DNA from: Arthrobacter sp. MYb214
GTDB taxonomy: Bacteria; Actinomycetota; Actinomycetes; Actinomycetales; Micrococcaceae
NCBI RefSeq assembly: GCF_002979865.1
Contig: NZ_PCPZ01000004.1
Span: 248,001 to 312,000, forward strand
Reading direction: 5' to 3'
Length of the DNA stretch: 64,000 nt
Shown in pieces: positions 14,820-62,117 of the stretch; position 1 is the first letter of the stretch; each line of letters begins with the position of its first letter. A model generated the notes under the pieces. That model was not told where the DNA came from, ran no database searches, and worked only from the letters and a program-made list of their open reading frames with translations. Position numbers and translations under genes: made by a program.

Positions 14820-16440
14820 GAGTTCCTTGCTTGGCGGCACCGAAGGTGCGCAGCACGGTGGCCTTGGCGCTGAGCGCTTCCAGAAGTTGGTCGACCTCGC
14901 GTGCTGGTGCAATGCCTGCTACATAGTAGTCTGGACGCACCAGCAGTACGGTACCGGTGGCGGTATCGAAGACCCGGTTGATGTCCTTGGCCCTCACGCT
15001 ATCGCCGTCCTGATTGGTGAAGACCAGCTGGGATCCGGCAGCCACCTCAATGGTGTTCCAGCCGGCCGACAGCAGCTCGTCGAGCATCACAGTGGCGCCA
15101 TTGACCTCAAGGTTTGGCTGCGGAAGCATGCGACCGGCAAAGTTCTGGGCCAGGTGCGGAACCCCGGAAACCGGTGCGGCGACGGTGCCGGTGGTGTAGT
15201 GAGGCTGCTTGAGGAAGCGCATGCCGGTTAGCCAGCGGTTCAGCGGTGGGATGATGCGGGTGCTGGTGACCACGGCATCGCGCACGCGGGTGATCACGGG
15301 GTTGGTGTTCATCACTACCCAGCCGATGCGCTTGGAAAGCTTGACCATTTCCTCGGCATGCGGGCGACGCTCGGTTTCGTAGTCATTGATGAGCACTTCG
15401 CTTGCTTCACCCTTGATGACCGCGGCCAGGCGCCAGGCAGCACCCACGGCGTCGCGGATGCCGGCGTTCAGCCCCTGCCCGGCGAAGGGCGGCATCAGGT
15501 GCGCGGCGTCGCCGGCCAACAGGATGCGTCCCTTGCGGTAGGTGTCGGCGATGCGCTGGTGTGCGGTGTAGACCGCGGCGCGGCGTACGGAGACCACGTT
15601 GGTGTCCTGGAATGATGCGACCAGGGCGGTGATGGATTCGGGGGTGATCATCGCGTCGCCATCTTCGTGATCGAAGAGCATGAATTCATAGCGGCGGCGG
15701 CCACCGACCCCGGGGACCACTACGGCCGGGCGCTGCCCGTTGCAGTGGAAGGACGCGAAAGGTTCGGGGTTGCCGGGCACATCGAGCAGATCCACCACGA
15801 TCCAGCGTTCGGTTTGGGTGGAACCCTGCAGGCCGATGCCCAGTTCGCGGCGGGTGAAGGAGCGACCGCCGTCGCAGGCAAGTACCCATTTGGCTTTGAA
15901 CTCGAGGGCGGTTTCTTCGCCTTCTGCTACTGCGTAGGGGTTCTGCCCGGTGTCTGCTGCCTTGGAGCCGTTGAATCCGGTGGTGGCTTCGCCGGTGCGG
16001 GTGGCGTGCACGATCACGTGGTCGGCATGCTGTTCGATCCTGGTGGCCGCGGTGGCGTAGTGCAGGCCCAGGTTCTGGCGCAGTGTGGCGGCCTCGTAGA
16101 GCAGGCCTTCCATGATTGGCTGGTCGAACTGGCTCTTGCCGGGCTGGCCTAGGCGGGGTGTGCCGGGGCGAACGTCGGCAATGACCTTGCCGCCCAGGCC
16201 GAAGTAGCGGGCACCGGTGTCCATGAGCATCTGCGGTCCCAGCTCATCCATGATTCCCAGGTGCGCCATGACGCGCAGGGTTTCATCGGTGGCGCTGATG
16301 GCACGTGGCTCATCGCCACTGCCCGGGTTCTTCTCGATCAATGCAACCTGCAGGCCGGTATCTGCCAGCAGGTTGGCGGCGGTCAGGCCGGTGGGACCCG
16401 AGCCGATGACCAGGACGTCGATTTCATGAGACTGTGCCAC
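14812..16440 (-). CDS. Class A FAD aromatic hydroxylase (MhpA/TfdB-like)
   Basis: 542 residues. FAD-binding GxGxxG at 13-18 (GSGPTG), the DG motif ACDGGRS at 188-194, and GDAAHLMPP at 310-318 followed by GQGLN are those of phenol and 3-(3-hydroxyphenyl)propionate hydroxylases. A C-terminal thioredoxin-like region ends with the VLLVRPDYYVAG segment typical of the group. It would add an ortho hydroxyl to a phenol using NAD(P)H and O2. It sits between the FAH hydrolase (50 bp upstream) and the GntR gene (8-bp overlap), and would supply the catecholic or hydroquinone-type substrate for the extradiol dioxygenase. The true substrate is not determined. Confidence 0.85.
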   Translation of the reverse strand: MAQSHEIDVLVIGSGPTGLTAANLLADTGLQVALIEKNPGSGDEPRAISATDETLRVMAHLGIMDELGPQMLMDTGARYFGLGGKVIADVRPGTPRLGQPGKSQFDQPIMEGLLYEAATLRQNLGLHYATAATRIEQHADHVIVHATRTGEATTGFNGSKAADTGQNPYAVAEGEETALEFKAKWVLACDGGRSFTRRELGIGLQGSTQTERWIVVDLLDVPGNPEPFASFHCNGQRPAVVVPGVGGRRRYEFMLFDHEDGDAMITPESITALVASFQDTNVVSVRRAAVYTAHQRIADTYRKGRILLAGDAAHLMPPFAGQGLNAGIRDAVGAAWRLAAVIKGEASEVLINDYETERRPHAEEMVKLSKRIGWVVMNTNPVITRVRDAVVTSTRIIPPLNRWLTGMRFLKQPHYTTGTVAAPVSGVPHLAQNFAGRMLPQPNLEVNGATVMLDELLSAGWNTIEVAAGSQLVFTNQDGDSVRAKDINRVFDTATGTVLLVRPDYYVAGIAPAREVDQLLEALSAKATVLRTFGAAKQGTRG

Positions 16441-16490
16441 TGCCCGCTACTTCCTTTGTGCTTCGTGTATTAACAGTGCGCGGCTGCGCG

Positions 16491-47741: not shown

Positions 47742-47787
47742 AAAGCAACGGATCGCGCCATCGGCAGATGGCGCGATCCGTTGCTTT
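47742..47787. terminator. Strong bidirectional intrinsic terminator
   Basis: A perfect 20-bp stem (47742-47761 with 47768-47787), with AAA on the left side and TTT on the right, between the permease gene and the convergent SdpI-like gene. Confidence 0.9.
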
Positions 47788-48448: not shown

Positions 48449-48540
48449 CAACCCATCCAGAGCGGCTGAGAGACCTGGCTCCGAGACGCCGCAGCAAGCC
48501 TGCACCAGCAGGTAGTGCTAACGCCAGGTTCGATGGAACT
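48449..48540 (+). ncRNA. SAM riboswitch (S-box, SAM-I-like), copy 1
   Basis: The P1 arms CCATC (48453-48457) and GATGG (48532-48536) enclose the S-box core: AGAGCGGCTGAGAGACCTGGC, then GCCGCAGCAAGCC, then GGTAGTGCTAACGCCAG. This order and spacing match the SAM-I aptamer. It lies 67 bp upstream of the binding-protein gene at 48607, on the same strand. Family knowledge: SAM binding turns such genes off, so expression is expected when SAM/methionine, hence usable sulfur, is scarce. The element is nearly identical to the one at 54830. Confidence 0.9.
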
Positions 48541-48606
48541 CCCGGGTCTAGAAGCATGAACTTCTGTTCGGGATCCCTCGTTCAATTTGTCTAAGAGAGG
48601 GACGAC
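48541..48606 (+). promoter_or_regulatory. Putative expression platform of riboswitch copy 1
   Basis: A hairpin CCCG...AGAAG/CTTCT...CGGG (48541-48573) is followed by TCCCTC (48574-48579), which is complementary to the Shine-Dalgarno GAGGGA (48597-48602) of the binding-protein gene. Sequestration of the ribosome-binding site, that is translational control, is therefore plausible; no T-tract terminator is seen. Confidence 0.55.
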
Positions 48607-49647
48607 ATGACTCGTACTCGTCCGAACGCCTTGAAAGTTCTGGCTTCAGCGATGGCGGCAGCAACACTGCTGACTGGCTGCTCGCTGAAAGAACCACGGC
48701 CGGAAATAGCGCCGGTTGTGGCGCAAAGCAGTAATCCGCAAGCCGAGCATAAGCTCGACAACGTTCCTTCACTCAAAGGCAAAAAGGTCGGCATCGCGGC
48801 CAAGGATATCCTGCACGACTACTCGCGCGTGGTCTACCAGCAGATCCAAGAGCGCATCAAAGAGCTCGGCGGCGAGGTCATCGCTACCCAAGCCGAAGCC
48901 AAAGACGAGAAGCACGTCTCTGACGTAGAAAACCTGATCACCCAGTCGCCCGATGCCATCGTGGTGATCCTGGGCGATGCCCAAACGCTCACTCCTGCCT
49001 TGGCCAAGGTGGACGCCGCCGGGATCCCGCTGTTCACCATCGATTTCCAAAGCGAATACTCGAAGAACAACGTCACCAGCGACAACTGGAACGTCGGCAC
49101 CACGCTGGCTCGCACCATGGCTGAAGACCTCCACGGCAAGGGGAAGATTCTGGTCTTCAACGGCTTCCCCGGTGTGACTCCCTGCCGGATCCGCTACAAC
49201 AGCCTGAACCTGGTGCTGGAAGACTACCCAAATATCGAGAAGATCACCCCGGAACTCCAGGACAAATACGAAGGCACCATCGAGGATGCCAAAAACCAGA
49301 TCCAGGACCAACTGCGCAGGCTGCCCGAGGGCGAAGTTGACGCGATTTGGTCCTGCTGGGACATGCCGCTGATCGGTGCCGCGCAGGCCATCGATCCCAC
49401 TGGTGGCGACATCAAGCTGTATGGAGTGGACGCAGAGCCCGGGGCCCTGGATTTGATAGCGAACCCGGACAGTTCATACCAGTTCACCGTCGCTCAGCCC
49501 ACCAAGCAGATTGCCGCTGCCTCGGCCACTAATATCGCCCTATTCCTCGATGGGCAAACCGATCTGGTTCCGAGCACCAGCTATGCCGAGCCGATTTTTG
49601 TCGACAAGGACAACGTGAATCAGGTGCGCCATGACAACGGAATCTAA
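48607..49647 (+). CDS. Ribose-type ABC substrate-binding lipoprotein under SAM riboswitch
   Basis: 346 residues. Lipoprotein signal (VLASAMAAATLLTGC, Cys at about 25) followed by a periplasmic-binding-protein-like fold of the RbsB class (KKVGIAAKDILHDYSRVVYQ, VENLITQSPDAIVVILGDAQ, AGIPLFTIDFQS, KILVFNGFPG, IKLYGVDAEPGALDLI). Sugar and autoinducer-2 receptors belong to this class. A SAM riboswitch directly upstream and a DszA-like gene in the same unit make a sulfur-containing ligand likely; a thio-sugar such as methylthioribose would reconcile both facts (inference). The stop overlaps the next gene by 17 bp. Confidence 0.86.
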   Translation: MTRTRPNALKVLASAMAAATLLTGCSLKEPRPEIAPVVAQSSNPQAEHKLDNVPSLKGKKVGIAAKDILHDYSRVVYQQIQERIKELGGEVIATQAEAKDEKHVSDVENLITQSPDAIVVILGDAQTLTPALAKVDAAGIPLFTIDFQSEYSKNNVTSDNWNVGTTLARTMAEDLHGKGKILVFNGFPGVTPCRIRYNSLNLVLEDYPNIEKITPELQDKYEGTIEDAKNQIQDQLRRLPEGEVDAIWSCWDMPLIGAAQAIDPTGGDIKLYGVDAEPGALDLIANPDSSYQFTVAQPTKQIAAASATNIALFLDGQTDLVPSTSYAEPIFVDKDNVNQVRHDNGI

Positions 49648-51169
49648 GGAACTGCTGAGCATGGCCGCCATCAACAAGTCCTTTGGCACGGTCGCCGTGC
49701 TCGACCATGTGCACCTGCAGCTTCGGGCCGGAGAGGTTCTGGGCCTAGTGGGCGAAAACGGAGCTGGAAAATCCACCCTGATCAAGATACTCACCGGGCT
49801 GTACACCCTGGACTCGGGGCAGATCGAACTTGCCGGCCAGCCGGTGCAAATTCGCCGGCCTGCCGATGCCGAAGCGCTAGGCATTGAAGTGATTCACCAG
49901 GACCGCCATCTGGCCGGCCGCTTGACCGTCGCCGAACAGCTGTATCTGGGCACCGCGAAGAGTCGTGGGCTCTGGCGCCACGAGCGCACCGCGCAGGCAG
50001 CAGCCCGGGCGGATATTTTGCGAACCACCGGCCAGGAGCTGGACACCGGTGCCTTCGTTGATGAGCTCAGCGTTGCCCAGCAGCAGCTGATCCAGATTGC
50101 CCGTGCCGTACTGGCCGAACCCAAGGTGCTGATTCTCGATGAGCCGACCGCACCGTTGGCCAATGATGAAGTTGAACAGCTCTTCGGCACGATCCGGCAT
50201 CTGCGGGACCGCGGGGTAGGGATCATTTTCATCTCGCATTATCTCCAGGAACTGCGGCAGATCACCGACCGGATTACGGTGCTGCGCAACGGCAGAAATG
50301 CCGGTGACGCCAGTTTCGCGGACGGTGACAGTATCGAAGATGTCATCGGCTTGATGCTGGGCAACCAGGTTAACGAGTTCTCGCACCAGAGGCGCGAGCC
50401 GCCCGCCGTTCAGGGCGAGCCTGCCCTTGAACTGGTGGACCTCTCGGTGGCCGGAACATTGAGCGGCATCAATATCTCGGTGGCGCCCGGAGAAATCGTG
50501 GCCGTCACCGGATTGGTGGGATCGGGGATTGAGGTGCTCGCCGACGCGGCCACCGGCAATCGTGCGCATACCGGCTCGGCGCTGCTGCACGGCCGGCCGG
50601 TGGCATCTGCGGCGGACTTTGCCGCCCGGGCAGGCGCCTACGTCCCGTCGAACCGGCATTCAGATGGCATCTTCCTGCGCAACACCGTGCGCGAAAATAT
50701 TGCAGCGGCCAGCCTGCGAAAGCTTGGCCGCCGCCTGGGCTTGTTGAATGCGCGCAAAGAGCGGGACACAGCCAGCGAACTGGTGCAGCGCCTGGATATC
50801 CGTCCTGCGAATCCAGAAGCCGTGGCTTCGGGTTTGTCCGGCGGCAACCAGCAGAAAGCGGTATTGGCCCGCTGGTTGGCCAAGGGATCGGACGCGCTCG
50901 TCTTGGACCAACCCACCTCGGGCGTCGACGTGGGAAGCCGTGCGCATATCTACGCGCAGATTTCCCAGTTGGTCCAGCAGGGAGCCGCCGCGCTGTTGGT
51001 CAGCGTTGACCTGGAAGAAGTAGTGGGACTGGCCGATCGAGTGCTGGTGCTCTATCGCGGTCGGATCATCGCCGAACTGCCGTCGAGCGAGGCGAGTACG
51101 GAAAGAATTCTGCACTTGGCATCCAGCGGCCAAACCGCCGGAACATCACGCGAAGAGGTCAAAGCATGA
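49631..51169 (+). CDS. Ribose-type ABC ATPase with two nucleotide-binding domains
   Basis: 512 residues, RbsA/XylG class. The first domain has Walker A GENGAGKS (41-48), signature LSVAQQQLIQIARA and Walker B VLILDEPTA. The second has a degenerate Walker A, GLVGSGIE, as usual for this class, but an intact LSGGNQQK signature and VLDQPTSGVDVG. It energises uptake of the ligand bound by the preceding lipoprotein. It starts 17 bp inside the binding-protein gene; a second ATG at 49661 is possible. It overlaps the permease by 4 bp. Confidence 0.9.
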   Translation: MTTESKELLSMAAINKSFGTVAVLDHVHLQLRAGEVLGLVGENGAGKSTLIKILTGLYTLDSGQIELAGQPVQIRRPADAEALGIEVIHQDRHLAGRLTVAEQLYLGTAKSRGLWRHERTAQAAARADILRTTGQELDTGAFVDELSVAQQQLIQIARAVLAEPKVLILDEPTAPLANDEVEQLFGTIRHLRDRGVGIIFISHYLQELRQITDRITVLRNGRNAGDASFADGDSIEDVIGLMLGNQVNEFSHQRREPPAVQGEPALELVDLSVAGTLSGINISVAPGEIVAVTGLVGSGIEVLADAATGNRAHTGSALLHGRPVASAADFAARAGAYVPSNRHSDGIFLRNTVRENIAAASLRKLGRRLGLLNARKERDTASELVQRLDIRPANPEAVASGLSGGNQQKAVLARWLAKGSDALVLDQPTSGVDVGSRAHIYAQISQLVQQGAAALLVSVDLEEVVGLADRVLVLYRGRIIAELPSSEASTERILHLASSGQTAGTSREEVKA

Positions 51170-52167
51170 GCGCCACCCTTGTTCCGGTCGACGAAGCACC
51201 TGCGCCTGGCGCGTCCCGCACGAAGCCGAGATTGGCGGCCTGGATCGGCTACGCCGGCATCACCGCGGTGCTGCTGCTCTTTGCCTTCGGTTCCCCATTT
51301 TTCTTGACGGCTTCGAATATCGCCACCATCCTGACCCAAGCGTCGGTCTTCGGCATTGCCGGGGTGGGGCTGGCCATTGTGATCATCGCTGGCGGCGACG
51401 ACGTGCTCAACGGAGGCATCGACCTGTCCACCGGCGCGGTGGCAGGACTAGCCGGAACGGTGACCGCGCTGGCCGCGGCTGCCGGAACCCCGGGCATGGT
51501 CGCGGTGCTCTACGGGGTCCTCGTTGCCACCGCGATCGGCGTCGTCAATGGCCTCTCGGTCACCTTGGGCCTGCGTCCGCTGCTGGCCACCTTGGCCACC
51601 ATGGGGGTGGCCGCTTCGCTGGAACTGGTCTTCAGCCAGAACTTGAAGATCGCCGTTACCGGTGGCTTCTTCGAAGCGGCGCGGGGCAGCGTGCTCTTCG
51701 GCATCCCATTGGTGGCCTGGCTTATGGCGCTCATCGGGGCAGCGGTGTGGTGGGTATATGGCAAAACCAGCTGGGGAGTGAATTCCTATGCGGTTGGCCA
51801 GAATCCGACCGCCGCGCAGGTGGCGGGACTTGACCCGCGCCGATACCGGCTAGCTAGCTATGTGCTCAGCTCGGCGTTGGCTGGCCTGGCCGGAACGCTG
51901 CTGGTGGCAAGGCTTTCGGCCGCCGTTCCAGGCATCGGAACCCAAATTCTCCTGGACATCATCCTGGTGGCCTACATGTCCATGATCTTTTCGCGCAGGC
52001 GGCTGGTCAGTGTGGTCGGCACCGTTCTGGCCGCGGTATTTGTGGCCGCCCTGGATAACGGATTGACGCTGCTGGGCGTGGCCAGCCAGTGGGTGGGTGC
52101 TGCCAAGGGCCTGCTGATCCTGCTGGTCTTGGCCAGCGTGACCCTGCGCGGAAGGAAGAACCGATGA
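51166..52167 (+). CDS. Ribose-type ABC permease, first
   Basis: 333 residues, BPD_transp_2 family, with 8-10 predicted helices. The hallmark GGIDLSTGAVAGLAG is present, as is GVNSYAVGQNPTAAQVAGLDPRR in the cytoplasmic coupling loop. It begins in the ATGA overlap with the ATPase gene and overlaps the second permease by ATGA. An unusual GGDDVLN precedes GGIDLS. Confidence 0.88.
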   Translation: MSATLVPVDEAPAPGASRTKPRLAAWIGYAGITAVLLLFAFGSPFFLTASNIATILTQASVFGIAGVGLAIVIIAGGDDVLNGGIDLSTGAVAGLAGTVTALAAAAGTPGMVAVLYGVLVATAIGVVNGLSVTLGLRPLLATLATMGVAASLELVFSQNLKIAVTGGFFEAARGSVLFGIPLVAWLMALIGAAVWWVYGKTSWGVNSYAVGQNPTAAQVAGLDPRRYRLASYVLSSALAGLAGTLLVARLSAAVPGIGTQILLDIILVAYMSMIFSRRRLVSVVGTVLAAVFVAALDNGLTLLGVASQWVGAAKGLLILLVLASVTLRGRKNR

Positions 52168-53267
52168 GCACCATTGAAACCCTGGCCGCACCCGTGGAGC
52201 CGAGCCCCGGACCGGTCGCAGCCTACAGCGGAAAGAAACGCGGCACGCTTCAAGCATCGAGGCTGGTGGCTCCGGGTACGTTGGCCCTGATCCTCATCGT
52301 GTTCTCGGTGCTCAGCCCGGTGATTTTCACCGTGGGAAACCTCTTCGGAATCCTGGGGCAGGTGGCTTTGCTCGCCTTGGCCGCCATCGGGTTGACCCTG
52401 GTGGTGCGCGCCGGAGGCATCGACCTGTCGATTGGCGTGGCCCTGGACCTGGGAGCCTTGGCCAGCGCTTGGCTGATCCATGACGGCTACCGTGCGTGGG
52501 TGGCCGTGGCCGGCGGGCTGCTTTGCGCCTTGGCGGTGGGAGCGGTGAATGCGCTGCTGATCGTGATCCTGCGAATCCCGGCTTTCCTGGCTACGCTGAG
52601 CGTGTGGTTTGCCGGCACCAGCGTGCAGCAGCTGCTCACCGGCGGCGGCGCACCGATCTACCTGTCGGCGCCCCTGGTGCCGGACGGTTTTGCCGTGATC
52701 GGGCGCGGATACTTCCTGGGCATTGACGCCGCCATCGTCAACGCGGTCTCCATCTCCCTGGTGGTGGCCCTGCTGCTTGGCATCACCCGCTACGGGCGGA
52801 AGCTGACCATGGCAGGCGAACAGCCGAGCGCCGCAAGAATATCTGGCCTGCGGACCAATGCGCTGATCGCCAGCGCCTACCTGTTGTGCGCGGTGATCGC
52901 CGGATTCGCCGGAGTGGTGCTGGCAGCACGCTCCAACGGATATGTCCCGGGCAGCGGACAGGCCTATCTGATGGATGCCATTGGCGCGGTCTTCATCGGG
53001 GCAACCATCAGCCGCTACGGGCGAGTGTCCGTGGGCGGAACGCTGATCGGCGTGGTGATTTTTGGCCTGCTGGATAACGGGCTGAACCTGATTGGCCTGT
53101 CCTTCTTCTGGCAAGACCTGGCCCGAGGGCTGGTTCTCCTGTCCATCCTGCTCGCCGCCGTGGTGCTCGGGAGGGCCAAGAGTCGGCCGGCCACCGGCAT
53201 CTTCGCGCTATTGCGCACGACCAAGCATCAGGCACTGACGAACACCGCGAAGGGAAACAGAAAATAA
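52164..53267 (+). CDS. Ribose-type ABC permease, second
   Basis: 367 residues from the ATG at 52164, in the ATGA overlap; a longer frame from 52089 lies inside the first permease. BPD_transp_2 family with about nine helices, the signature RAGGIDLSIGVALDLGALAS, and the coupling segment LTMAGEQPSAARISGLRTNA. Two different permeases in one ribose-class system indicate a heterodimer, as in the autoinducer-2 (Lsr) importer, rather than the RbsC homodimer. The stop TAA overlaps the ATG of the monooxygenase by one base. Confidence 0.88.
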   Translation: MSTIETLAAPVEPSPGPVAAYSGKKRGTLQASRLVAPGTLALILIVFSVLSPVIFTVGNLFGILGQVALLALAAIGLTLVVRAGGIDLSIGVALDLGALASAWLIHDGYRAWVAVAGGLLCALAVGAVNALLIVILRIPAFLATLSVWFAGTSVQQLLTGGGAPIYLSAPLVPDGFAVIGRGYFLGIDAAIVNAVSISLVVALLLGITRYGRKLTMAGEQPSAARISGLRTNALIASAYLLCAVIAGFAGVVLAARSNGYVPGSGQAYLMDAIGAVFIGATISRYGRVSVGGTLIGVVIFGLLDNGLNLIGLSFFWQDLARGLVLLSILLAAVVLGRAKSRPATGIFALLRTTKHQALTNTAKGNRK

Positions 53268-54703
53268 TGGGCAAGCGCATCCACCTTAACGCCTTTGACA
53301 TGACCTGCGTCAGCCACCAGAGCCCTGGGCTGTGGCGGCACCCGCAGAATCGAGCCGACGAATACAACACCCTTGAATACTGGGTGGATCTGGCCAAGAC
53401 CCTGGAGCGCGGTGGCTTTGATGCCCTGTTCCTCGCCGATGTACTTGGCATCTATGACGTGTACCAGAATTCCAGCGGTCCAGCCTTGCTCGATGCCGAC
53501 CAGGTGCCACTGAACGATCCCTTCATGCAGGTTTCCGCCATGGCCGTGGCCACGAAGAATCTCGGTTTCGCGGTGACCAGCGCGCTGACCTATGAGCAAC
53601 CCTACGCGCTGGCCCGGAAGTTCTCCTCGCTGGACCACCTCACCCGCGGGCGCATCGGTTGGAACGTGGTGACTAGCTACTTGGAGTCGGCGGCCCGCAA
53701 TCTGGGCATGGCCAGGCAGCTGGATCACGACGCCCGCTACGACATTGCCGATGAATTCATGGACGTGGTCTACAAGCTCTGGGAGGGATCATGGGAGGAA
53801 GACGCGGTTCTCAAGGACCGCGAACGTGGCGTCTACACCGACCCTTCCAAGGTGCATCCGATTAACCATCACGGCCAGTACTTCAACGTGCCGGGCATCC
53901 ATCTTTCCGAGCCTTCCATCCAGCGCACCCCGGCGATCTTCCAAGCGGGCGCTTCTTCGCGCGGCCGGCGCTTTGGCGCGCAGCATGCCGAGGGCATCTT
54001 CCTGAATTCGATCAATACCGCGGTCACCCGCCGCCAGACCGATGCGATCCGCGATGAGTTCGAACTGGTGGGTCGGCCCCGGGACGCCGCCAAAATCTAT
54101 GCGCTGATGACCACTGTGGTGGCTGATTCAGACGCGCAGGCGCAGAAGCTCTACCGCGAATACCAGTCCTATGCCTCGCGCGAAGGTGCCATGGCATTCT
54201 ATGGCGGGTGGTCGGGCTTGGACCTGAGCCAGTACGCGCCGGATGAGGAGCTGCAATATCTGGAAACCAACGCGGCGCGATCGGCGGTATCGATTTTCAC
54301 TACAGCGAATCCGCAGCAGAAGTGGACCCCGAATGCCATCGCCGACTACCTCGGAGTTGGCGGCATCGGACCGGTGCTCGTCGGTTCGCCGGAAACCGTG
54401 GCGGACGAAATCGAGCGTTGGGTGGATGAATCAGGATTGGACGGGATCAACTTGGCCTATGCCATCACCCCAGGTTCCTTCGAGCAGTTCACCGATCTGG
54501 TGGTTCCCGAGTTGCGGAAGCGCGGAAGAACTTGGGCAGGATACGAAGGCAACACCCTGCGCGAATATCTGGCGGGTCCCGGCACGACGCGAGTGGCTGA
54601 CGATCACCCTGCAGCCGCCTATCGCGGGGCTTATGCGGGAAAGGCCTCGGCAGCGGAATCCGAAGCGAGCCAAACACCTGAAGCTGTACTAGGCGCCCGG
54701 TGA
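53267..54703 (+). CDS. DszA-like LLM flavin monooxygenase under SAM riboswitch
   Basis: 478 residues, NtaA/SnaA/DszA branch of the luciferase-like family. Segments resemble DszA: LAKTLERGGFDALFLADVLG, RGRIGWNVVTSYLESAARNLGM, DHDARYDIADEFMDVVYKLW, KVHPINHHGQYFNV, IFQAGASSRGRRFGAQHAEGIF and the C-terminal YEGNTLREYL. DszA cleaves the C-S bond of dibenzothiophene sulfone using FMNH2 and O2. Last gene of the riboswitch-controlled importer operon, so it probably desulfurises the imported compound after oxidation by the DszC-like proteins encoded next. It is longer than the paralogue at 26.4 kb by a C-terminal tail. Confidence 0.87.
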   Translation: MGKRIHLNAFDMTCVSHQSPGLWRHPQNRADEYNTLEYWVDLAKTLERGGFDALFLADVLGIYDVYQNSSGPALLDADQVPLNDPFMQVSAMAVATKNLGFAVTSALTYEQPYALARKFSSLDHLTRGRIGWNVVTSYLESAARNLGMARQLDHDARYDIADEFMDVVYKLWEGSWEEDAVLKDRERGVYTDPSKVHPINHHGQYFNVPGIHLSEPSIQRTPAIFQAGASSRGRRFGAQHAEGIFLNSINTAVTRRQTDAIRDEFELVGRPRDAAKIYALMTTVVADSDAQAQKLYREYQSYASREGAMAFYGGWSGLDLSQYAPDEELQYLETNAARSAVSIFTTANPQQKWTPNAIADYLGVGGIGPVLVGSPETVADEIERWVDESGLDGINLAYAITPGSFEQFTDLVVPELRKRGRTWAGYEGNTLREYLAGPGTTRVADDHPAAAYRGAYAGKASAAESEASQTPEAVLGAR

Positions 54704-54829
54704 CACATGAGGAAATATGACGGCCACTGAGGCCCCTGTGAAGGCCTCGAAAATGTCGATTCATGACGATGTTCCGTCCTATGACATCTTCCCTGCCAAG
54801 CGGAGGCCGTCGGTGCTTCACTGATGGAG

Positions 54830-54922
54830 AACAACCCATCCAGAGCGGCTAAGAGACCTGGCTCCGAGTCGCCGCAGCAAGCCTGCACTCCGCAGGTAGT
54901 GCTAACGCCAGGTTCGATGGAT
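54830..54922 (+). ncRNA. SAM riboswitch (S-box, SAM-I-like), copy 2
   Basis: P1 arms CCATC (54836-54840) and GATGG (54916-54920) enclose AGAGCGGCTAAGAGACCTGGC, GCCGCAGCAAGCC and GGTAGTGCTAACGCCAG, differing from copy 1 at only a handful of loop and stem positions. It lies 51 bp upstream of the DszC-like gene at 54974. The sequence after it differs from copy 1: a GGATCCGCAG/CTGCATCC hairpin, then AAGAGGAG as Shine-Dalgarno. It gives the second transcription unit its own SAM-dependent control. Confidence 0.9.
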
Positions 54923-54973
54923 CCGCAGATTTTCTGCATCCTTCGGAATCCATAGCCCAAGAGGAGAACGAAG

Positions 54974-56200
54974 ATGACTGTACTGGATACCCAATTGCCG
55001 CGCGTGCCCTACACCGGCACTGCTGATGAAGCTGAACTGGCTGATTGGCGCGACGTCGCCCAGCAAGTAGCTGACAAGCTGGCGGCTGACGCGCTCGAAC
55101 GCGACCGAAAGAACGCCCAGCCTTTCGCCGAAGTGCAGCTGCTGCGCGAAGCCGGGTTGCTCAATCTCTTGGTGCCTGCAGAATTCGGCGGAGCCGGAGC
55201 CCATTGGGAAACGGCCTTCGAAGTGGTCCGCATACTGGCCGCAGCTGATGGATCCATCTCGCAGTTGCTGGCTTACCACTACATCAACCAGTCCGGCATT
55301 CCGTTCTACGCCCCAGCAGAAGCGCAAGGGGCATGGTGGCAGCGCACCGTGGAAGGTGGCTGGCTCTGGGGCGATTCGGTGAATCCAGTTGATCCGGATT
55401 TGACGCTGAGCGCCGAAGGGGACGGCTACCGACTGAATGGAGCCAAGCGATTCTCCACGGGTTCCGGTGTTGGCGAGGTCATCGTCATCAACGCGCTGGT
55501 CCAGGGCGGAGAATACGACGGGCAGATTCTCGCGTTGGTTCTGCCACGCGATATCGATGGCTTGGAAATCGTTGACGACTGGGACTACCTGGGACAGCGG
55601 CTGAGCGCGTCGAATTCCTTGAAGTTCCACAACGTGCGGCTCGAAGCAGGGGACTTGCTGGGATTCGTCACCGATGAACCGGTCTCCACCCTGCTTACCC
55701 CCGGTATCCAGCTGGCCTTCGCCAACTTCTATCTGGGCATCGCCCAGGGAGCACTGGAGCGCGGCAAGCAGATCTTGCTGGGCCGCAAGAACGCCTGGCT
55801 GTTCTCGCAGGCAGAGACCTACTCGCAGGACCCGATCTTCCAGCGCACCGTCGGAGAGCTCAAAGCCCGCACCGCAGCAGTGGCGGCGCTGACCGAGAAG
55901 CTGGGCCGGAAATTCGACGCCCTGCTCTCAAAGGCCGGGGAAGTCACCCAGCCCGAACGAGCGGCGTTGGCCGTGGAAATTGCTGAAGCCAAGGTGGTCT
56001 CCACTGAGGTGGGAGTGGATGTGGCGAACCGGATCTTCGAGGTGACCGGTTCATCTTCGACTGCGAACTCGGTGGGCCTGGACCTGTACTGGCGCAATGT
56101 GCGCACCCATTCGCTGCACGACCCAGTGGACTACAAGAAGATCGAGGTCGGCGCCTACTTCCTGCGCGGAGAGTCCCAGCCGCTCTCGCTGTACACCTAA
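54974..56200 (+). CDS. DszC/SfnB-like flavin monooxygenase (acyl-CoA dehydrogenase fold)
   Basis: 408 residues, start preceded by AAGAGGAG. DszC-like features: LREAGLLNLLVPAEFGGAGA near the N-terminus, VVRILAAADGSISQLLAYHY, GYRLNGAKRFSTGSGVGEVI, LAFANFYLGIAQGALERGKQ and the C-terminal RNVRTHSLHDPVDYKKIEVG, which is close to the DszC ending. The acyl-CoA dehydrogenase catalytic Glu region is replaced, consistent with an oxygenase. It would oxidise a thioether to sulfoxide or sulfone with reduced flavin, making the substrate for a DszA-type enzyme. Direct control by riboswitch copy 2. Confidence 0.87.
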   Translation: MTVLDTQLPRVPYTGTADEAELADWRDVAQQVADKLAADALERDRKNAQPFAEVQLLREAGLLNLLVPAEFGGAGAHWETAFEVVRILAAADGSISQLLAYHYINQSGIPFYAPAEAQGAWWQRTVEGGWLWGDSVNPVDPDLTLSAEGDGYRLNGAKRFSTGSGVGEVIVINALVQGGEYDGQILALVLPRDIDGLEIVDDWDYLGQRLSASNSLKFHNVRLEAGDLLGFVTDEPVSTLLTPGIQLAFANFYLGIAQGALERGKQILLGRKNAWLFSQAETYSQDPIFQRTVGELKARTAAVAALTEKLGRKFDALLSKAGEVTQPERAALAVEIAEAKVVSTEVGVDVANRIFEVTGSSSTANSVGLDLYWRNVRTHSLHDPVDYKKIEVGAYFLRGESQPLSLYT

Positions 56201-56228
56201 GAAAACTTCTCCCGGATTGGACTGAACG

Positions 56229-57467
56229 ATGACTGTACTTGCAACTGGCAATCGACTCGCAGGCCTCAAAAACCGCTTCGCACCGCTCTTCGCGCGCATT
56301 GCGCAGGGTGCAGCTGAACGCGACCGCACCGGCGAATTGCCCTACCAGCAGGTCGCGGACCTGGCCGCTGCCGGCTTTGGCGCGGTTCGGGTCCCGGAAT
56401 CGCACGGGGGTGCCGGTGCTACGCTGCCCGAACTCTTCGAGCTCTTCGTGGATCTCGCGGCGGCGGATTCCAATATTGCCCAAGCGCTGCGCGCGCACTT
56501 CGCCTTCGTCGAGGACCGTCTGGTTGCGGCCCCCGGTCCGGGGCGCGACAAGTGGCTGGCCCGCTTCGTGGCGGGAGAATTGGTGGGCAACTCCTGGACC
56601 GAGGTCGGCACCGTCAAGGTCGGGGACGTGATCACCAAGGTCACCCCGGACGGCGAGGGAAGATTCAAGCTCAACGGCACCAAGTACTACTCCACCGGCT
56701 CGATCTTCGCCGACTGGCTCGATACCTACGCAGAGCGCACCGACACCGGAAAGCGCGTGATCGCCGCAGTCAACCGCCACCAGCCCGGCGTCGAGCTGGC
56801 CGATGACTGGGATGGCTTCGGCCAGCGCACCACGGGTACCGGCACCTCCACCTTCACCGATGCGATTGTCGCTGAAGAAGACCTCATCGACTTCGATACG
56901 CGTTTCAAGTACCAGACAGCTTTCTACCAGCAGGTGCTGCTCGCTGTTCTGGCCGGCTCCGCCAAAGCAGCCGAGCGCGACTTCGCCGCCGAGCTGAAGG
57001 CGCGCAAGCGGACCTTCAGCCATGCCGCGGCCAATCTGGCGGCCGAAGACCCGCAGCTGCTGCAGGTGATCGGCGAGGTCTCCGCGGCGGCCTTCGCTGC
57101 CGCGGCAACGGTGGAACGAGTGTCGACGGCATTGCAGGGAGCCTATGAAACTGCGCAGGCGCTGCACACCGGCGAGGTGACCGGGGAAGAGGACGAAGCA
57201 GCCAACGATGCGGCAGAGCTGGCCAGCGCCCAGGCGCAGGTGGTGCTCACGCCATTGGTCCTCAACGCGATCACCCACGCTTTTGATGCGCTGGCCGCCA
57301 GCGCCACGAGCGTTACCAAGAACCTGGACCGGCACTGGCGCAATGCCCGTACCGCCGGCAACCACAACCCCTGGGTGTTCAAGGCGCGGTTGATTGGCGA
57401 CCTGGCGGTTAATGGCACCGAGCTTCCGCGCGTGTGGGCGATTGGTGCATCAAAGACGATTCCTTGA
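56229..57467 (+). CDS. SfnB/DszC-like flavin monooxygenase, second
   Basis: 412 residues, 28 bp after the first DszC-like gene and presumably in the same SAM-controlled unit. The acyl-CoA dehydrogenase fold is shown by VADLAAAGFGAVRVPESHGGAGA, LAAADSNIAQALRAHFAFVE, RFKLNGTKYYSTGSIFADW and the C-terminal LDRHWRNARTAGNHNPWVFKARLIGD. It is more distant from DszC than its neighbour, closer to the SfnB-like group linked to organosulfur use. A role in a second oxidation step or on a different sulfur compound is possible. A terminator hairpin follows. Confidence 0.85.
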   Translation: MTVLATGNRLAGLKNRFAPLFARIAQGAAERDRTGELPYQQVADLAAAGFGAVRVPESHGGAGATLPELFELFVDLAAADSNIAQALRAHFAFVEDRLVAAPGPGRDKWLARFVAGELVGNSWTEVGTVKVGDVITKVTPDGEGRFKLNGTKYYSTGSIFADWLDTYAERTDTGKRVIAAVNRHQPGVELADDWDGFGQRTTGTGTSTFTDAIVAEEDLIDFDTRFKYQTAFYQQVLLAVLAGSAKAAERDFAAELKARKRTFSHAAANLAAEDPQLLQVIGEVSAAAFAAAATVERVSTALQGAYETAQALHTGEVTGEEDEAANDAAELASAQAQVVLTPLVLNAITHAFDALAASATSVTKNLDRHWRNARTAGNHNPWVFKARLIGDLAVNGTELPRVWAIGASKTIP

Positions 57468-57576: not shown

Positions 57577-58617
57577 TTAGCGCACCTGGGTAACCGTGCC
57601 ACTTGCGATATGGAAGATATCCAAGTCGCGGGGCACGAAGAGGCTGCCAGAGAACTGTTTCGAAGCCCGCTGCCAAACTTCCATTCCAGATCCAGCGGGA
57701 ACCAAATGATGCAGCGCCAAGTTCCGTGCTCCAGCCCGCTGGGCGATTCGTCCTGCATCTTCTGCGGTGGTGTGCGCGCGCCGATGATGTCCCATGCTCG
57801 CTTCCAGCTCGGAGGATGAAGCATGCGGGTAGCTACGAGCGATGGCCTCCAGATCAATAGCTTCATGGAACAGCAAGTCGCAGCCTTGGGACAGGCGCGC
57901 AAGATTTGCGCTTGGCGCTGTATCGCCGGAAATCACGACCGATCCATATCTCGAATCAAAGCGGAATGCGAATGCCGGAGCGATAGGTTGGTGCTGGACC
58001 AGGATAGCGCTAATTTTTACATGTCGATCAGCGTATATTTCAAAAGGCTCCATGTCCGGGTGATTATTGTGGTTGGGGTGGAAGCCTGTGCCGGCAGGAA
58101 TCTCGATATCTACGCCATGGAAAATATCCGAAATATCAGGTGTCGCCGAATCCCGTCGGCGATCGTTGAGATCTGTCGCATGGGCGCGCAGCAGCAAGTT
58201 GACCATGGCGTTGGTCCCGGGTGTGGGCGACTGCGGAAATATGGCTTCCGGCTCCTCGGCCGCTGTCTGCATCGAGGGCAGCACTCCTCGATCACCCGGT
58301 CCGAAAACAGGAACCTGCCGACCCTCGGTGCCGCGGAACGCAAGGCCGCCCAGGACCATGACAGAATTCAGGTCAATGACGTGGTCTGAATGCTGATGGG
58401 TAATGAAAATTCCGCGCAGGGCAGTGGGGTGAATCCCGATCTCAGCCAGGCCCAAACCGACGCCTTGGCCGCAATCCACCAAGTAAGCGTGGCCGTCCAC
58501 AACGATTGCGGTAGAAATTCCGCGACGGTGACCGGTTCCTGGATCCGGCCTCAATAGCGGGCCGCCAGCAGTTCCAAGCGCCACTGCATGCATTCCGGTC
58601 TTCATCACTGGCTTCAT
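57577..58617 (-). CDS. Metallo-beta-lactamase-fold hydrolase, copy 1
   Basis: 346 residues. The zinc motif HxHxDH is at 74-79 (HQHSDH); further ligands are likely in SGDTAP and LALHHLVP near the C-terminus. The opening VALGTAGGPLLRPDPGTGHRRGISTAIVVDGHAYLVDCGQGVG matches the tRNase Z/arylsulfatase-like subgroup of the fold. It is a paralogue of the protein encoded at 61071, sharing the FGPGDRG/IGPGDRG, PTPGT, NDR and HQPIAPAFAFRFD segments, but its codons are visibly less GC-rich. Converges on the sulfur operon. Substrate unknown; a sulfate or other ester, or a lactone, are possibilities. Confidence 0.82.
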   Translation of the reverse strand: MKPVMKTGMHAVALGTAGGPLLRPDPGTGHRRGISTAIVVDGHAYLVDCGQGVGLGLAEIGIHPTALRGIFITHQHSDHVIDLNSVMVLGGLAFRGTEGRQVPVFGPGDRGVLPSMQTAAEEPEAIFPQSPTPGTNAMVNLLLRAHATDLNDRRRDSATPDISDIFHGVDIEIPAGTGFHPNHNNHPDMEPFEIYADRHVKISAILVQHQPIAPAFAFRFDSRYGSVVISGDTAPSANLARLSQGCDLLFHEAIDLEAIARSYPHASSSELEASMGHHRRAHTTAEDAGRIAQRAGARNLALHHLVPAGSGMEVWQRASKQFSGSLFVPRDLDIFHIASGTVTQVR

Positions 58618-59724: not shown

Positions 59725-61074
59725 CTAGTGGCTCATTTCCTCGGCCTCGAGGTCGGCGTCGCGGCCTTCCTTGATGCCGCGCATGGCCAGGGCGGCGACG
59801 ATGAATGCGGCGGCCCAAACGGCTCCGGCGATCCACAGCGATCCGCCGCCCAGCAGCACCAGGCCTGCAACGATCATCGGGGTGAAACCCGCGCCCACGG
59901 TGGAGGAGAGCTGGTAGACCAGCGAAGCGCCGGTGTAGCGGATGCGGGTTGGGAACAGCTCCGCGGTGAACGCGCCGAACGGCCCGAAGATGAAGGCCTG
60001 GATGATGCCGTTGGCCACGAACAGCGCGATGGCGAACAGCCACAGCTGGCCCAGTTCCAGCATCCACATGATCGGCAGGGCGGCCACGGCGCCGGCGAGG
60101 ATGCCGACCATCATGACCGGGCGGCGGCCCAGCTTGTCTGAATAGCGCGATGAAACCCAGATGCCCACCACGGTCAACGCGGCGCCAATGGCCTTGATGT
60201 TCAGCACCGCAGTGCGGTCCATGCCGACTTCCTCGACCACGTAGGAGATGGCCCAGACGGTCATCAGGCCCTGCACCGTGTAGGAGCTCATGCCCACCAA
60301 GGTTCCGCGGATGACGGACTTCGGGTACTTGGTGATGACCTCCATGAAGGGGGTCTTGCGCTCTTCTGCCTTGTTTTCCAACGCGAGGAACAGCGGGGAC
60401 TCGGTGACCTTCAGCCGGATGACCAGCCCGATGCCCACCAGCGCGATGCTGATCAGGAACGGAATGCGCCAGCCCCAGGCCAGGAACTGCTCATTGGGCA
60501 TGAGCGAGACGGCCGAGACTGCCAACGTGGCCATCACGGCGCCGGCCGGGCCGCCCATGTTCGCGAAGCTCGCCGCGAAGCCGCGGCGCTCCTTCGGCGC
60601 GTGCTCCAGTGCCATCAGCATGGCCCCGCCCCATTCGCCGCCCACGGCCAGGCCCTGGACGATGCGCAAGATGATCAGCGCGATCGGGGCCAGCATGCCG
60701 ATCTGCGCGGTGGGAGGAAGCAGGCCGATCAGTGTCGAGGCACCGCCCATCATCGCCATCGAGGTGATCAGCACGCCCTTGCGGCCGATCTTGTCGCCGA
60801 AGTGGCCGAACACGATGCCGCCCAGCGGTCGGGCCAGATATCCCACGGCCAAGGTGGCAAAGGAAGCGAAGATGGCTACGCCCGGGGTCAGGCCAACGAA
60901 GAAGACCTTGTTGAAGACCAGCGAGGCCGCGGTGGCGTAGAGGATGAAATCGTAGAATTCGATTGCGCTGCCGATGAAGCTGGAAGCCAGGATCCGGCGC
61001 ATCTGCGGGGATTTCAGCGAGGGAACCAACGCTTGTGCCTCCACGCCGTTGCCATTATTCAGGGTGCTGCTCAT
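59725..61074 (-). CDS. MFS transporter, metabolite:H+ symporter (MHS) family
   Basis: 449 residues, 12 predicted helices, with SSFIGSAIEFYDFILYATAASLVF, GYLARPLGGIVFGHFGDKIGRKG and RIVQGLAVGGEWGGAMLMALEHAP. It is strongly similar to the MHS transporter at 27.9 kb. It starts in the ATGA overlap with the metallo-beta-lactamase-fold gene, so the two are co-translated: the transporter would import a substrate that the hydrolase then opens or cleaves. The substrate is probably an organic acid or ester. Confidence 0.88.
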   Translation of the reverse strand: MSSTLNNGNGVEAQALVPSLKSPQMRRILASSFIGSAIEFYDFILYATAASLVFNKVFFVGLTPGVAIFASFATLAVGYLARPLGGIVFGHFGDKIGRKGVLITSMAMMGGASTLIGLLPPTAQIGMLAPIALIILRIVQGLAVGGEWGGAMLMALEHAPKERRGFAASFANMGGPAGAVMATLAVSAVSLMPNEQFLAWGWRIPFLISIALVGIGLVIRLKVTESPLFLALENKAEERKTPFMEVITKYPKSVIRGTLVGMSSYTVQGLMTVWAISYVVEEVGMDRTAVLNIKAIGAALTVVGIWVSSRYSDKLGRRPVMMVGILAGAVAALPIMWMLELGQLWLFAIALFVANGIIQAFIFGPFGAFTAELFPTRIRYTGASLVYQLSSTVGAGFTPMIVAGLVLLGGGSLWIAGAVWAAAFIVAALAMRGIKEGRDADLEAEEMSH

Positions 61075-62117
61075 CGTACTGCCGCCATTTCACTGTTGAC
61101 GCGGGAAAAGGATATCGTGTCCAGATCGTTGGGCACTAGGTAGTTGCCGGAGAATTTCGCGGCGTGGGCTTCCCAGACCTGCAAAGGCGTAGTTCCGGGG
61201 ACCAGATGGTGCAGGGCCAGAGTGCGCGCCCCGGCCTCGTGCGCGATCTCGATCGCCTGCTCCGGCGAGGTGTGCGAGGCGCGGTGGTGGTCCATCGAAG
61301 CCTGGGCTTCCAAGGTGCCAACCGAACCGTAGGCGCGTTGCACCCAGTCGAAGTCGATGGCCTCATGAAGCAGCAGGTCGGTATCCTTCGCCAGGGCCAC
61401 CAGGTTCTGGCAGGGCGCGGTGTCTCCGGAAATGGCCACCGAGCCTTCTGCGGTATCGAAGCGGAAGGCGAAGGCCGGAGCAATCGGCGGGTGCTTGACC
61501 AGTGTTGCGGTCACCGTGACCAGCTCGTCGCGGTAGATCTCGAACGGCGCGAAGCCCTTCGGTGTCGGGTTCTCGTTGGGGTGGTACCCGCTGCCGGCCG
61601 GAATCTCGATATCCGAGGCGATGAAGTGGTCCAGCGGGGAGGGGCGCAGGGCGTCGATCACGCGGTCATTCAGGTCCGTGGCGTAGGCCTGCATCAGATG
61701 CTCGAACATCGAGGCAGTGCCCGGGGTCGGGTTCTGCGCGAAGACCGGCTGCGGGGCGGTCACTGCGCGCGGGGAGGCAGGTGGCAGGGCGCCGCGGTCG
61801 CCGGGGCCGATGATGGAAATCGGAGCCTTGCCCGCTGGCAGGGTGAACATTCCGAAGATGGCCAGCGAAGCCAGGTCGATGGTGTGATCGGAGTGCAAGT
61901 GCGTGAGGAAGATGCCGCGAAGGTTCGCAGGGGTGAAGCCGGCTTTCATCAGCTGGTTGCCCACGCCGGTTCCGGCATCCACCAGGTAGACGCTTTCGCC
62001 CACGACTACGGCGGTGGAAATTCCCGCCCGCTTGCCGGCGTTCTCGCCAGTCCACCAGCGGGGTCCGCCGGCGGTGCCCAGCGTAACGACGTGGGGATTG
62101 AGATTGGTGGAGGCCAT
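61071..62117 (-). CDS. Metallo-beta-lactamase-fold hydrolase, copy 2
   Basis: 348 residues. The zinc motif is LTHLHSDH; VTLGTAGGPRWWTGENAGKRAGISTAVVVGESVYLVDAGTGVG at the N-terminus and ISGDTAPCQNL and LALHHLVPGTTP further on match copy 1. First gene of a two-gene unit with the MHS transporter (4-bp overlap). It belongs to the RNase Z/arylsulfatase-like branch but has no feature that fixes the substrate. Codon use is GC-rich like its neighbours, unlike copy 1, so copy 1 is more likely the incoming or relaxed one. Confidence 0.83.
   Translation of the reverse strand: MASTNLNPHVVTLGTAGGPRWWTGENAGKRAGISTAVVVGESVYLVDAGTGVGNQLMKAGFTPANLRGIFLTHLHSDHTIDLASLAIFGMFTLPAGKAPISIIGPGDRGALPPASPRAVTAPQPVFAQNPTPGTASMFEHLMQAYATDLNDRVIDALRPSPLDHFIASDIEIPAGSGYHPNENPTPKGFAPFEIYRDELVTVTATLVKHPPIAPAFAFRFDTAEGSVAISGDTAPCQNLVALAKDTDLLLHEAIDFDWVQRAYGSVGTLEAQASMDHHRASHTSPEQAIEIAHEAGARTLALHHLVPGTTPLQVWEAHAAKFSGNYLVPNDLDTISFSRVNSEMAAVR

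Follow-up and report, generated by a model that had tools for sequence, protein, structure and literature searches.

A candidate organosulfur-scavenging gene set with a CUT2-type importer, a DmoA-like monooxygenase and two SAM-I leaders in Arthrobacter sp. MYb214

Why does an importer of the sugar-transporting type stand behind S-adenosylmethionine (SAM) riboswitches and share its operon with an enzyme of a class that cleaves carbon-sulfur bonds? We addressed this question in Arthrobacter sp. MYb214, using a 64,000-nucleotide stretch of contig NZ_PCPZ01000004.1 (positions 248,001 to 312,000), referred to here in its whole length as the window. It contains two SAM-I (S-box) leaders, the first before a ribose-class (CUT2) ATP-binding cassette (ABC) importer operon that ends in a luciferase-like monooxygenase (LLM) gene, and the second before two genes for DszC-like and SfnB-like monooxygenases. 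A role of this gene set in sulfur scavenging is well supported by the gene families and by the company that they keep in related genomes. The fuller explanation that we favor, a SAM-repressed unit for scavenging organosulfur compounds, appears reasonably probable.

Two S-box leaders and the genes behind them

The features of the locus are listed below. Leaders were scored with the covariance model RF00162, for which the gathering threshold is 44.4 bits.

48450-48539, + strand: SAM-I (S-box) aptamer heading the operon of importer and LLM genes (RF00162 46.6 bits, above gathering, E 1.6e-7 in the whole window)
48607-49647, + strand: substrate-binding lipoprotein (SBP; Peripla_BP_4, CUT2/ribose class; PF13407 163 bits, lipobox LLTGCS read in the translation)
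49631-51169, + strand: CUT2-type double ATPase (PF00005, ABC_tran, in two stretches; best NCBIfam match YtfR, 417 bits against a cut-off of 850)
51166-52167, + strand: CUT2 permease A (PF02653, BPD_transp_2)
52164-53267, + strand: CUT2 permease B (PF02653, scanned from 52089)
53267-54703, + strand: DmoA-like LLM flavin-dependent monooxygenase of the C-S-cleaving class (Bac_luciferase; TIGR03860 533 bits)
54833-54923, + strand: SAM-I aptamer 2, heading the DszC-like/SfnB-like gene pair (RF00162 43.0 bits, 1.4 short of gathering; E 3e-7, search space 10.5 kb)
54974-56200, + strand: DszC/MsuC-like acyl-CoA-dehydrogenase-fold monooxygenase (TIGR04022 270.1 bits and DszC model 256.7 bits, both below cut-off)
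56229-57467, + strand: SfnB-like acyl-CoA-dehydrogenase-fold oxidoreductase (TIGR04022 252.4 bits, cut-off 430.9)

The first aptamer ends 67 bases upstream of five overlapping reading frames (48607-54703) that encode the binding lipoprotein, the ATPase, the two permeases and the LLM monooxygenase, and the second ends 50 bases upstream of the DszC-like gene. A preliminary description of this DNA, made from its letters, had placed S-box aptamers upstream of both gene groups, and the RF00162 matches bear this out. The second match falls below gathering, but it is identical to the first aptamer at 86 of 91 aligned positions and therefore is not a chance match. It is one of six S-boxes in the 3.72 Mb genome (19 contigs), and the other five are above the cut-off. 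Compared with the genome's four S-boxes outside the window, the first aptamer shares 69-75 identical positions of 93-103 aligned.

The likeness of the two window aptamers ends at the aptamer borders. In five related loci of the Micrococcaceae (L007-L011), a gap of only 26-108 bases separates the ends of the tblastn matches to the LLM and DszC-like genes; in the window these two genes are 270 bases apart. The S-box searches of those loci and genomes reported no S-box between the two matches. Because the aptamers are nearly identical within their borders alone, and because the gap in L007-L011 is short and free of an S-box, the second aptamer resembles a more recent duplicate whose arrival divided a single operon in the lineage of the window. 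After the end of the LLM gene and upstream of this aptamer, inspection by eye showed a 35-codon frame (ATG to TGA, 54717-54824) with a credible ribosome-binding site; it could be what is left of a gene since lost.

The importer belongs to the CUT2 class by its Peripla_BP_4 binding protein, double ATPase and BPD_transp_2 permeases, and both the Pfam families and the reading-frame coordinates agree with the ribose-class importer described earlier. The ATG of permease B overlaps the stop of permease A, and the listed frame start at 52089 is farther upstream. With the CUT2 importers of ribose, xylose and autoinducer-2 (AI-2), namely RbsABC, XylFGH and LsrABCD, it shares class, subunit make-up and four aligned sugar-contact residues, but it scores far below the cut-offs of the specific models listed, and no sugar-utilisation gene recurs beside it. 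None of the Rbs models reached its cut-off (RbsB 39.6 of 337 bits, RbsA 358.7 of 745, and ribose permease 113.2 and 154.6 of 398), and a reading of the SBP as a binder of ribose, xylose or AI-2 was rejected because the listed models failed their cut-offs. Among solved structures, 3l49 and 4wt7 are nearest to the SBP.

The LLM enzyme had been called DszA-like, and we found that it reads as DmoA-like instead. It passes the NtaA/DmoA family model TIGR03860 (cut-off 279.7 bits), and among solved relatives it ranks DmoA (6ak1; 621 bits, 57.3% identity over 464 residues) ahead of LadA (477 bits, 49.4%) and of BdsA, the DszA equivalent (252 bits, 35.6%). A tree of 26 rows places it with DmoA 6ak1 in a 13-row clade with support of 95/93, while the order inside the clade is weaker (82/77) and BdsA lies outside on a long branch. 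Identity with DszA was thus ruled out by the PDB ranking, the identities and the tree. Scores with the SsuD model (60 of 518 bits) and the SfnG model (76 of 383) were low as well. The importer-linked LLM of a further genome, G143 (L075), branches below DmoA within the DmoA clade at the same weak support (82/77), so no separate group, distinct from DmoA, unites the importer-linked LLM enzymes.

The two remaining oxygenases carry acyl-CoA dehydrogenase domains, and their earlier assignment as DszC/SfnB-like holds at the level of matches below cut-off. The SfnB model TIGR04022 is the best-scoring model for both proteins, and the DszC model NF043015 (cut-off 850) gave 256.7 bits for the 54974 protein and 103.2 for the 56229 protein. 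The nearest solved relatives of the DszC-like protein are 8cda, MsuC (6u76) and DszC (4doy).

These genes can be set beside several known systems. The window LLM shares with DmoA its clade and its C-S-cleaving enzyme class; unlike DmoA with dimethylsulfide (DMS), it is encoded within an importer operon that an S-box precedes. Since DMS crosses membranes unaided and needs no importer, the substrate of the window LLM is probably a different one. The 4S pathway of Rhodococcus (DszABC) and BdsA likewise combine a DszC-family enzyme with a C-S-cleaving LLM enzyme, but the window's LLM is distant from BdsA, its DszC-like gene is far below the DszC model, its set has an importer of its own, and no DszB was found among its seven genes. 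The ytmI and yxe operons of Bacillus subtilis presumably follow the same design as the window, with an ABC importer and an NtaA/DmoA-family monooxygenase that releases sulfur from a thioether; we take them to differ in having amino-acid-type importers for cysteine derivatives and control by transcription factors.

Conserved linkage and the wider S-box regulon

To find the importer elsewhere, the SBP was used as query against 84,980 genomes of named species, and 11 loci in the Micrococcaceae and Microbacteriaceae emerged; the scan requires exact peptide words, and this count is a lower bound. Within the order, 3 of 297 genomes, the present one included, had an SBP match at E 1e-60. Together with the window and two further genomes (G143 and G157), 14 actinobacterial loci were compared, one of which (L076) ends inside the ATPase gene. 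A DszC-like gene lies beside the importer in 13 of the 14 and an LLM gene in 11. The one locus without an adjoining DszC-like gene, L017, has no LLM gene there either, and a row of LLM, DszC and SfnB genes is found on another contig of the same genome; a gene of the N-acetylglucosamine (GlcNAc)-2-epimerase family (14967-16442) lies downstream of the L017 importer. In the window and in L007-L011, all genes run in the same direction and an S-box precedes the SBP gene in six of six cases (over gathering in the window, L007, L010 and L011; below it in L008 and L009). The SBP tree points to the Micrococcaceae as the family of the window as well. The importer and the oxygenases of the Microbacteriaceae loci L012-L016 are divergent.

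Apart from single-genus flanks, ABC-type matches at L010 and one pair shared by L008 and L017, no extra enzyme that would name the substrate recurs beside the 11 loci. Ten proteins encoded next to single loci were scanned and looked incidental: an aldo/keto reductase (L009), an N-acylglucosamine 2-epimerase (AGE)-family protein (L017), RNase J and a major facilitator superfamily transporter (L008), ABC parts (L010), a helix-turn-helix protein (L007) and three without a match.

The other S-boxes of the same genome all precede methionine or sulfur genes. One leads an O-acetylhomoserine (OAH)-sulfhydrylase-like gene (below cut-off) and a cystathionine-gamma-synthase gene, another a sulfonate-type ABC ATPase gene (below cut-off), and a third a metY gene (over cut-off). 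The fourth, at L019 (G000:C15:1-14000), precedes a metN-like gene, transporter genes read by eye as metI/metQ, and then SfnB-like and LLM genes. At L019 there is also a second SfnB-like/LLM pair upstream, and a similar MetQ-MetN-MetI/LLM/SfnB group was seen on a Pantoea plasmid.

Five related Micrococcaceae genomes (L039-L066) hold 29 S-boxes, 24 of them over the cut-off; 24 of the 29 do not stand before the importer. The first downstream genes of 18 of these 24, picked by script, were scanned at an E limit of 1e-30. They comprised four SfnG genes (over cut-off), three NtaA/DmoA LLM genes, two SfnB-like genes, two methylenetetrahydrofolate reductase genes, one OAH sulfhydrylase gene, two genes for peptide-type (TIGR04028-like) binding proteins, one acetate-CoA ligase gene and three genes without a match. 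From these gene families it follows that in the Micrococcaceae S-boxes stand before genes of organosulfur scavenging and not just before methionine genes, forming a broad organosulfur regulon. The SAM-I regulons of Firmicutes, which we take to cover methionine, cysteine and S-methyl-5-thioribose (MTR) salvage, involve the same RNA family before sulfur and methionine genes, whereas the Micrococcaceae S-boxes examined here also stand before genes for scavenging sulfones and sulfonates and before CUT2-linked scavenging genes. With the linkage to DszC-like and LLM genes, this regulon supports the proposal of sulfur scavenging in the preliminary description.

The gene order also recurs outside the Actinomycetota. 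Relatives of the SBP occur in 113 plasmid records, every one at less than 60% identity, and eight such regions were chosen from the match lists (not at random), that of Rhizobium sp. T136 because its SBP and LLM matches lay near each other. The T136 plasmid carries SBP, ATPase, permease, permease and LLM genes in the order of the window, with a DszC-like gene (39.6%) and SfnB genes upstream, and in Agrobacterium leguminum the importer adjoins an LLM gene and two SfnB genes. Sulfur genes were directly linked in these two of the eight regions; from the side of the LLM gene, CUT2 parts adjoined it in one of four opened plasmid regions (R. leguminosarum).

Several observations weigh against a SAM-controlled sulfur role for this importer. 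Two Frigoribacterium loci (L015 and L016) have DszC-like and SfnB-like genes and no LLM gene beside the importer, their best LLM elsewhere being 52-53% identical. No S-box was found in any of the six Microbacteriaceae genomes behind L012-L017, with 150 candidates scored per genome. The importer of R. leguminosarum WSM2304 stands alone, away from sulfur genes, and an LLM/SfnB/DszC-like cluster with another CUT2 ATPase and permease lies about 110 kb away on the same plasmid; the SBP relatives of Mesorhizobium, Sulfitobacter, Shinella and R. bangladeshense belong to sulfur-free sugar or polyol operons. No CUT2 importer is annotated beside the DmoA-like genes of Paracoccus and Pantoea plasmids, and no importer match was found around a Rhodococcus DmoA-like gene, in a region that is unannotated. 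The rhizobial importer-linked LLM genes form a sister subclade of the DmoA group, so the pairing of importer and LLM may have arisen twice. To these are added the alteration of the P3 helix beside the SAM pocket in the clade of the window, and the induction on dibenzothiophene of a comparable enzyme set in Gordonia, by which such sets need not serve sugars (PMC11852219, in its available part).

Three further observations concern the surroundings of the gene set in the window. A near-perfect inverted repeat (47742-47787) just after a GntP-type permease gene gave a sub-threshold microRNA match and is more likely a terminator hairpin. On the reverse strand, 57577-58617 encodes a metallo-beta-lactamase-fold protein with RNase Z/GntH-type matches. 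Judged by eye, the product of 61071-62117, also on the reverse strand, resembles it, and the two are separated by a frame (59725-61074) that reads as transporter-like.

The altered P3 helix and leader control

We next consider whether the leaders could respond to SAM. When 28 of the 35 S-boxes were aligned, the GCAA and GUGC letters, which we take to be SAM-contacting residues, were invariant, and the complement between P2 loop and J3-4 was nearly so. Among 11 aligned S-boxes, both-sided changes that keep the pair were seen at 4 of 20 predicted pairs, and most of the others hardly vary.

A difference appears at the start of P3, beside the SAM pocket (residues are given in what we assume to be the standard SAM-I numbering). 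This part has its canonical CC and G letters in all 28 non-importer S-boxes, four from the present genome and 24 from the five Micrococcaceae genomes. It is non-canonical in both window aptamers and in the leaders of L007, L008 and L009, and canonical in those of L010 and L011. In the window aptamers, L007 and L008, a purine at position 47 faces G56 in place of the C-G pair; the pair 48-55 is C-A in the window and is formed through other letters in L007, L008 and L009. Neither window aptamer has the canonical P3 C-G pairs, a feature that the Rfam model score does not require. The altered form was found in five of seven leaders of importer or DszC-like genes and in none of the 28 others (Fisher exact test; p 6.5e-5). 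The five leaders come from four genomes that form one SBP clade (100/99), so the difference may be a single change and is no independent evidence of function. As far as letters can tell, the altered P3 could weaken SAM binding.

Carried further, this would make both leaders decayed S-boxes that sense SAM poorly, with the cluster nearly constitutive. The substitutions at 47-56 and 48-55, set against the canonical letters of the other S-boxes, and the low covariance scores of the importer and DszC-like gene leaders are consistent with such decay. It is nevertheless unlikely, given that the presumed SAM contacts and the P2-loop/J3-4 complement persist, that the 48-55 pairing is kept through changed letters in L007, L008 and L009, and that in the window the aptamer alone was duplicated.

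For the way in which a SAM-repressed leader would act on its genes, secondary structures were predicted with P1 forced, as a stand-in for the SAM-bound form, and unforced. One feature of the first leader emerged:

48575-48601, + strand: predicted hairpin CCCUC/GAGGG covering the Shine-Dalgarno stretch of the SBP gene (in folds with P1 forced and of the downstream part alone)

In the P1-forced prediction, the GAGGG within the ribosome-binding stretch before the SBP gene base-pairs with the CCCUC upstream of it. In the unforced fold, part of the aptamer pairs with sequence just 3' of it, and GAGGGAC has an unpaired probability of 0.03-0.39, so that much of the ribosome-binding stretch is again paired. 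Because the stretch is paired in both, the folds alone show no clean switch. A pattern scan of 401 bases around each leader gave no terminators, and no sigma-70-like promoter was found upstream of the first leader. Since no terminator-like site turned up at either leader, control of translation seems the likelier mode.

Candidate substrates and a proposed route

The nature of the imported compound was assessed by comparing pocket residues, a comparison that rests on aligned letters and on the ribose contacts of E. coli RbsB, which we take to be D89, R141, D215 and Q235 together with N13, R90 and N190. Residues D146, R196, D275 and Q297 of the window SBP align with the first four and are invariant in 12 actinobacterial SBPs; Asp, Arg, Asp and Gln occupy these places in all 17 SBPs compared, the ribose binder included. 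The positions of N13, R90 and N190 are replaced in the 16 SBPs that are not the ribose binder. Ser73 and Tyr221 are present in all 12 actinobacterial SBPs, with Asp and Ile or Phe in 10 other non-ribose relatives. The solved relative 4wt7, the Avi_5165 binding protein of Agrobacterium vitis, is 42% identical to the window SBP over 297 residues and is titled as allitol-bound (PMC10318746, in its available part). It belongs to the same SBP family, but several aligned pocket positions differ. In the SBP tree, which leaves out L022, it groups with the rhizobial SBPs L024, L025 and L033 (100/99), two of which stand beside sulfur genes. The four retained sugar-contact positions and the allitol-titled relative favor a polyhydroxylated ligand, and our best guess from the aligned residues is a sugar- or polyol-like sulfur compound. 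The sugar-like ligand of the preliminary description is in this respect probably correct.

The substrate could instead be an organosulfur compound that is no sugar, such as DMS, dimethylsulfone, a sulfinate or even an aromatic thioether, with a CUT2 importer that has drifted or is unrelated. The SfnG genes behind S-boxes in related genomes fit this idea. DMS, however, crosses membranes unaided, and the Asp, Arg, Asp and Gln of the SBP that align with hydroxyl-binding residues would be out of place for such ligands; we regard this substrate class as unlikely. On its side are also the known activities of the enzyme families, as DmoA acts on DMS, an unoxidised thioether, and MsuC on methanesulfinate (PMC8234197, in its available part). 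The Sfn/Msu system of pseudomonads (SfnG, MsuC, MsuD and SfnB), which serves organosulfur use under sulfur limitation according to the same part of that source, shares with the window the combination of group C and group D flavin monooxygenases; the window differs in its CUT2 importer, its S-box and an LLM that scores weakly with the SfnG model. In Gordonia alkanivorans 135, an NtaA/DmoA-family monooxygenase, SfnB and acyl-CoA dehydrogenases are induced on dibenzothiophene, and the available part of the report names no S-box or CUT2 importer with these otherwise similar enzymes (PMC11852219).

It is likewise unlikely that an ordinary sugar or polyol without sulfur is what the importer carries, its oxygenase and S-box setting being incidental or a matter of carbon supply in sulfur stress. 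Four related SBPs do lie in sugar or polyol operons with short-chain dehydrogenase, class II aldolase and kinase genes, and both the allitol title of 4wt7 (PMC10318746, as available) and the epimerase-family gene at L017 point the same way. Such a substrate would leave unaccounted for the adjoining DszC-like gene in 13 of 14 actinobacterial loci, the S-box before the importer in the window and L007-L011, and the two alphaproteobacterial clusters in which the importer is again found with LLM and SfnB genes. The neighbourhoods of the 11 loci have no recurring sugar-utilisation gene, and the Ser73/Tyr221 pair sets the actinobacterial SBPs apart from their other relatives, the ribose binder aside.

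MTR would be a more specific sulfur sugar, cleaved by the DmoA-like enzyme to methanethiol in a salvage without mtnK. A sugar-like pocket would suit it and SAM control would fit methionine salvage. Neither TIGR01767, which models MTR kinase, nor PF01008, the family of mtnA, found a match in the genome (the same searches were positive in 2 and 9 of 14 control genomes, respectively), so MTR would not be usable by the classical route; this absence shows just that the classical route is missing. Two nucleoside-phosphorylase-family genes are present, one nucleosidase-like, with all methylthioadenosine (MTA)-nucleosidase models below cut-off, and the other, the best of the family, scoring as an ordinary purine-nucleoside phosphorylase and not as an MTA phosphorylase. 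A distant SBP relative (39%) lies among mtnK, mtnA, mtnB, mtnC and mtnD in Klebsiella pneumoniae CP125156 (L038/L077/L078), but its operon has a ribokinase-like kinase of its own, and codA and codB are in the same region, so this neighbourhood may be chance. We consider MTR itself improbable. A second sugar-type SBP (27%) was seen one gene away from mtnK in the Klebsiella region.

A sugar sulfonate such as sulfoquinovose is very improbable: the sugar-type importer and the AGE-family gene at L017 (presumably the family of sulfoquinovose isomerase) would suit it, but that gene occurs in one locus only, the LLM is DmoA-like and not SsuD-like, and sulfonates need no DszC-like step.

We return to the favored explanation, a SAM-repressed organosulfur-scavenging unit. 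The computations show the aptamers, the families of the genes, a linkage that is conserved and an S-box regulon that the genes share; from these we infer SAM control, a ligand, an enzyme order and a product as follows. When SAM is low, the S-box leaders would permit, likely through translation, expression of the CUT2 importer with the DmoA-type monooxygenase and, separately, of the DszC-like and SfnB-like monooxygenases. An organosulfur compound that is polyhydroxylated, resembling a sugar or polyol, would be captured by the anchored SBP and taken in by the importer. The DmoA-like enzyme would oxidise the carbon next to the sulfur and break the C-S bond. The product would be a thiol or, where the sulfur had already been oxidised by the DszC-like enzyme, a sulfinate. 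The freed sulfur could reach methionine through O-acetylhomoserine sulfhydrylases, which themselves stand behind S-boxes in this genome. The preliminary description had fixed the order as oxidation to a sulfone followed by cleavage, an order that is not required, because DmoA is reported to act on the unoxidised thioether (PMC8234197, in its available part). Its observation is confirmed, and its interpretation is partly supported.

A narrower form of this proposal is put forward tentatively: a thio-sugar or thio-polyol would be taken up whole by the CUT2 importer and its C-S bond cut by the DmoA-type enzyme, methanethiol or sulfite would pass to methionine under SAM-I control, and the altered P3 would shift SAM affinity in one Micrococcaceae clade. 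An importer with flavin monooxygenases under sulfur control is a known kind of system, and the present variant joins a CUT2 importer to a DmoA-type enzyme behind SAM-I leaders. The earlier statement that no pathway with this combination is described holds among the matches listed in the full-text literature, including the available parts of PMC2211319, PMC3766115, PMC8557817, PMC8234197 and PMC11852219; this coverage takes in few subscription papers, most lying outside it, and the statement reaches no further.

If correct, the proposal would identify a sulfur source of sugar-like type on which soil and plant-associated bacteria can draw, and a branch of importers whose sole annotation is 'sugar ABC transporter' would gain a function in sulfur supply. 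It would also mean that the SAM-I regulon of the Micrococcaceae extends to organosulfur scavenging.

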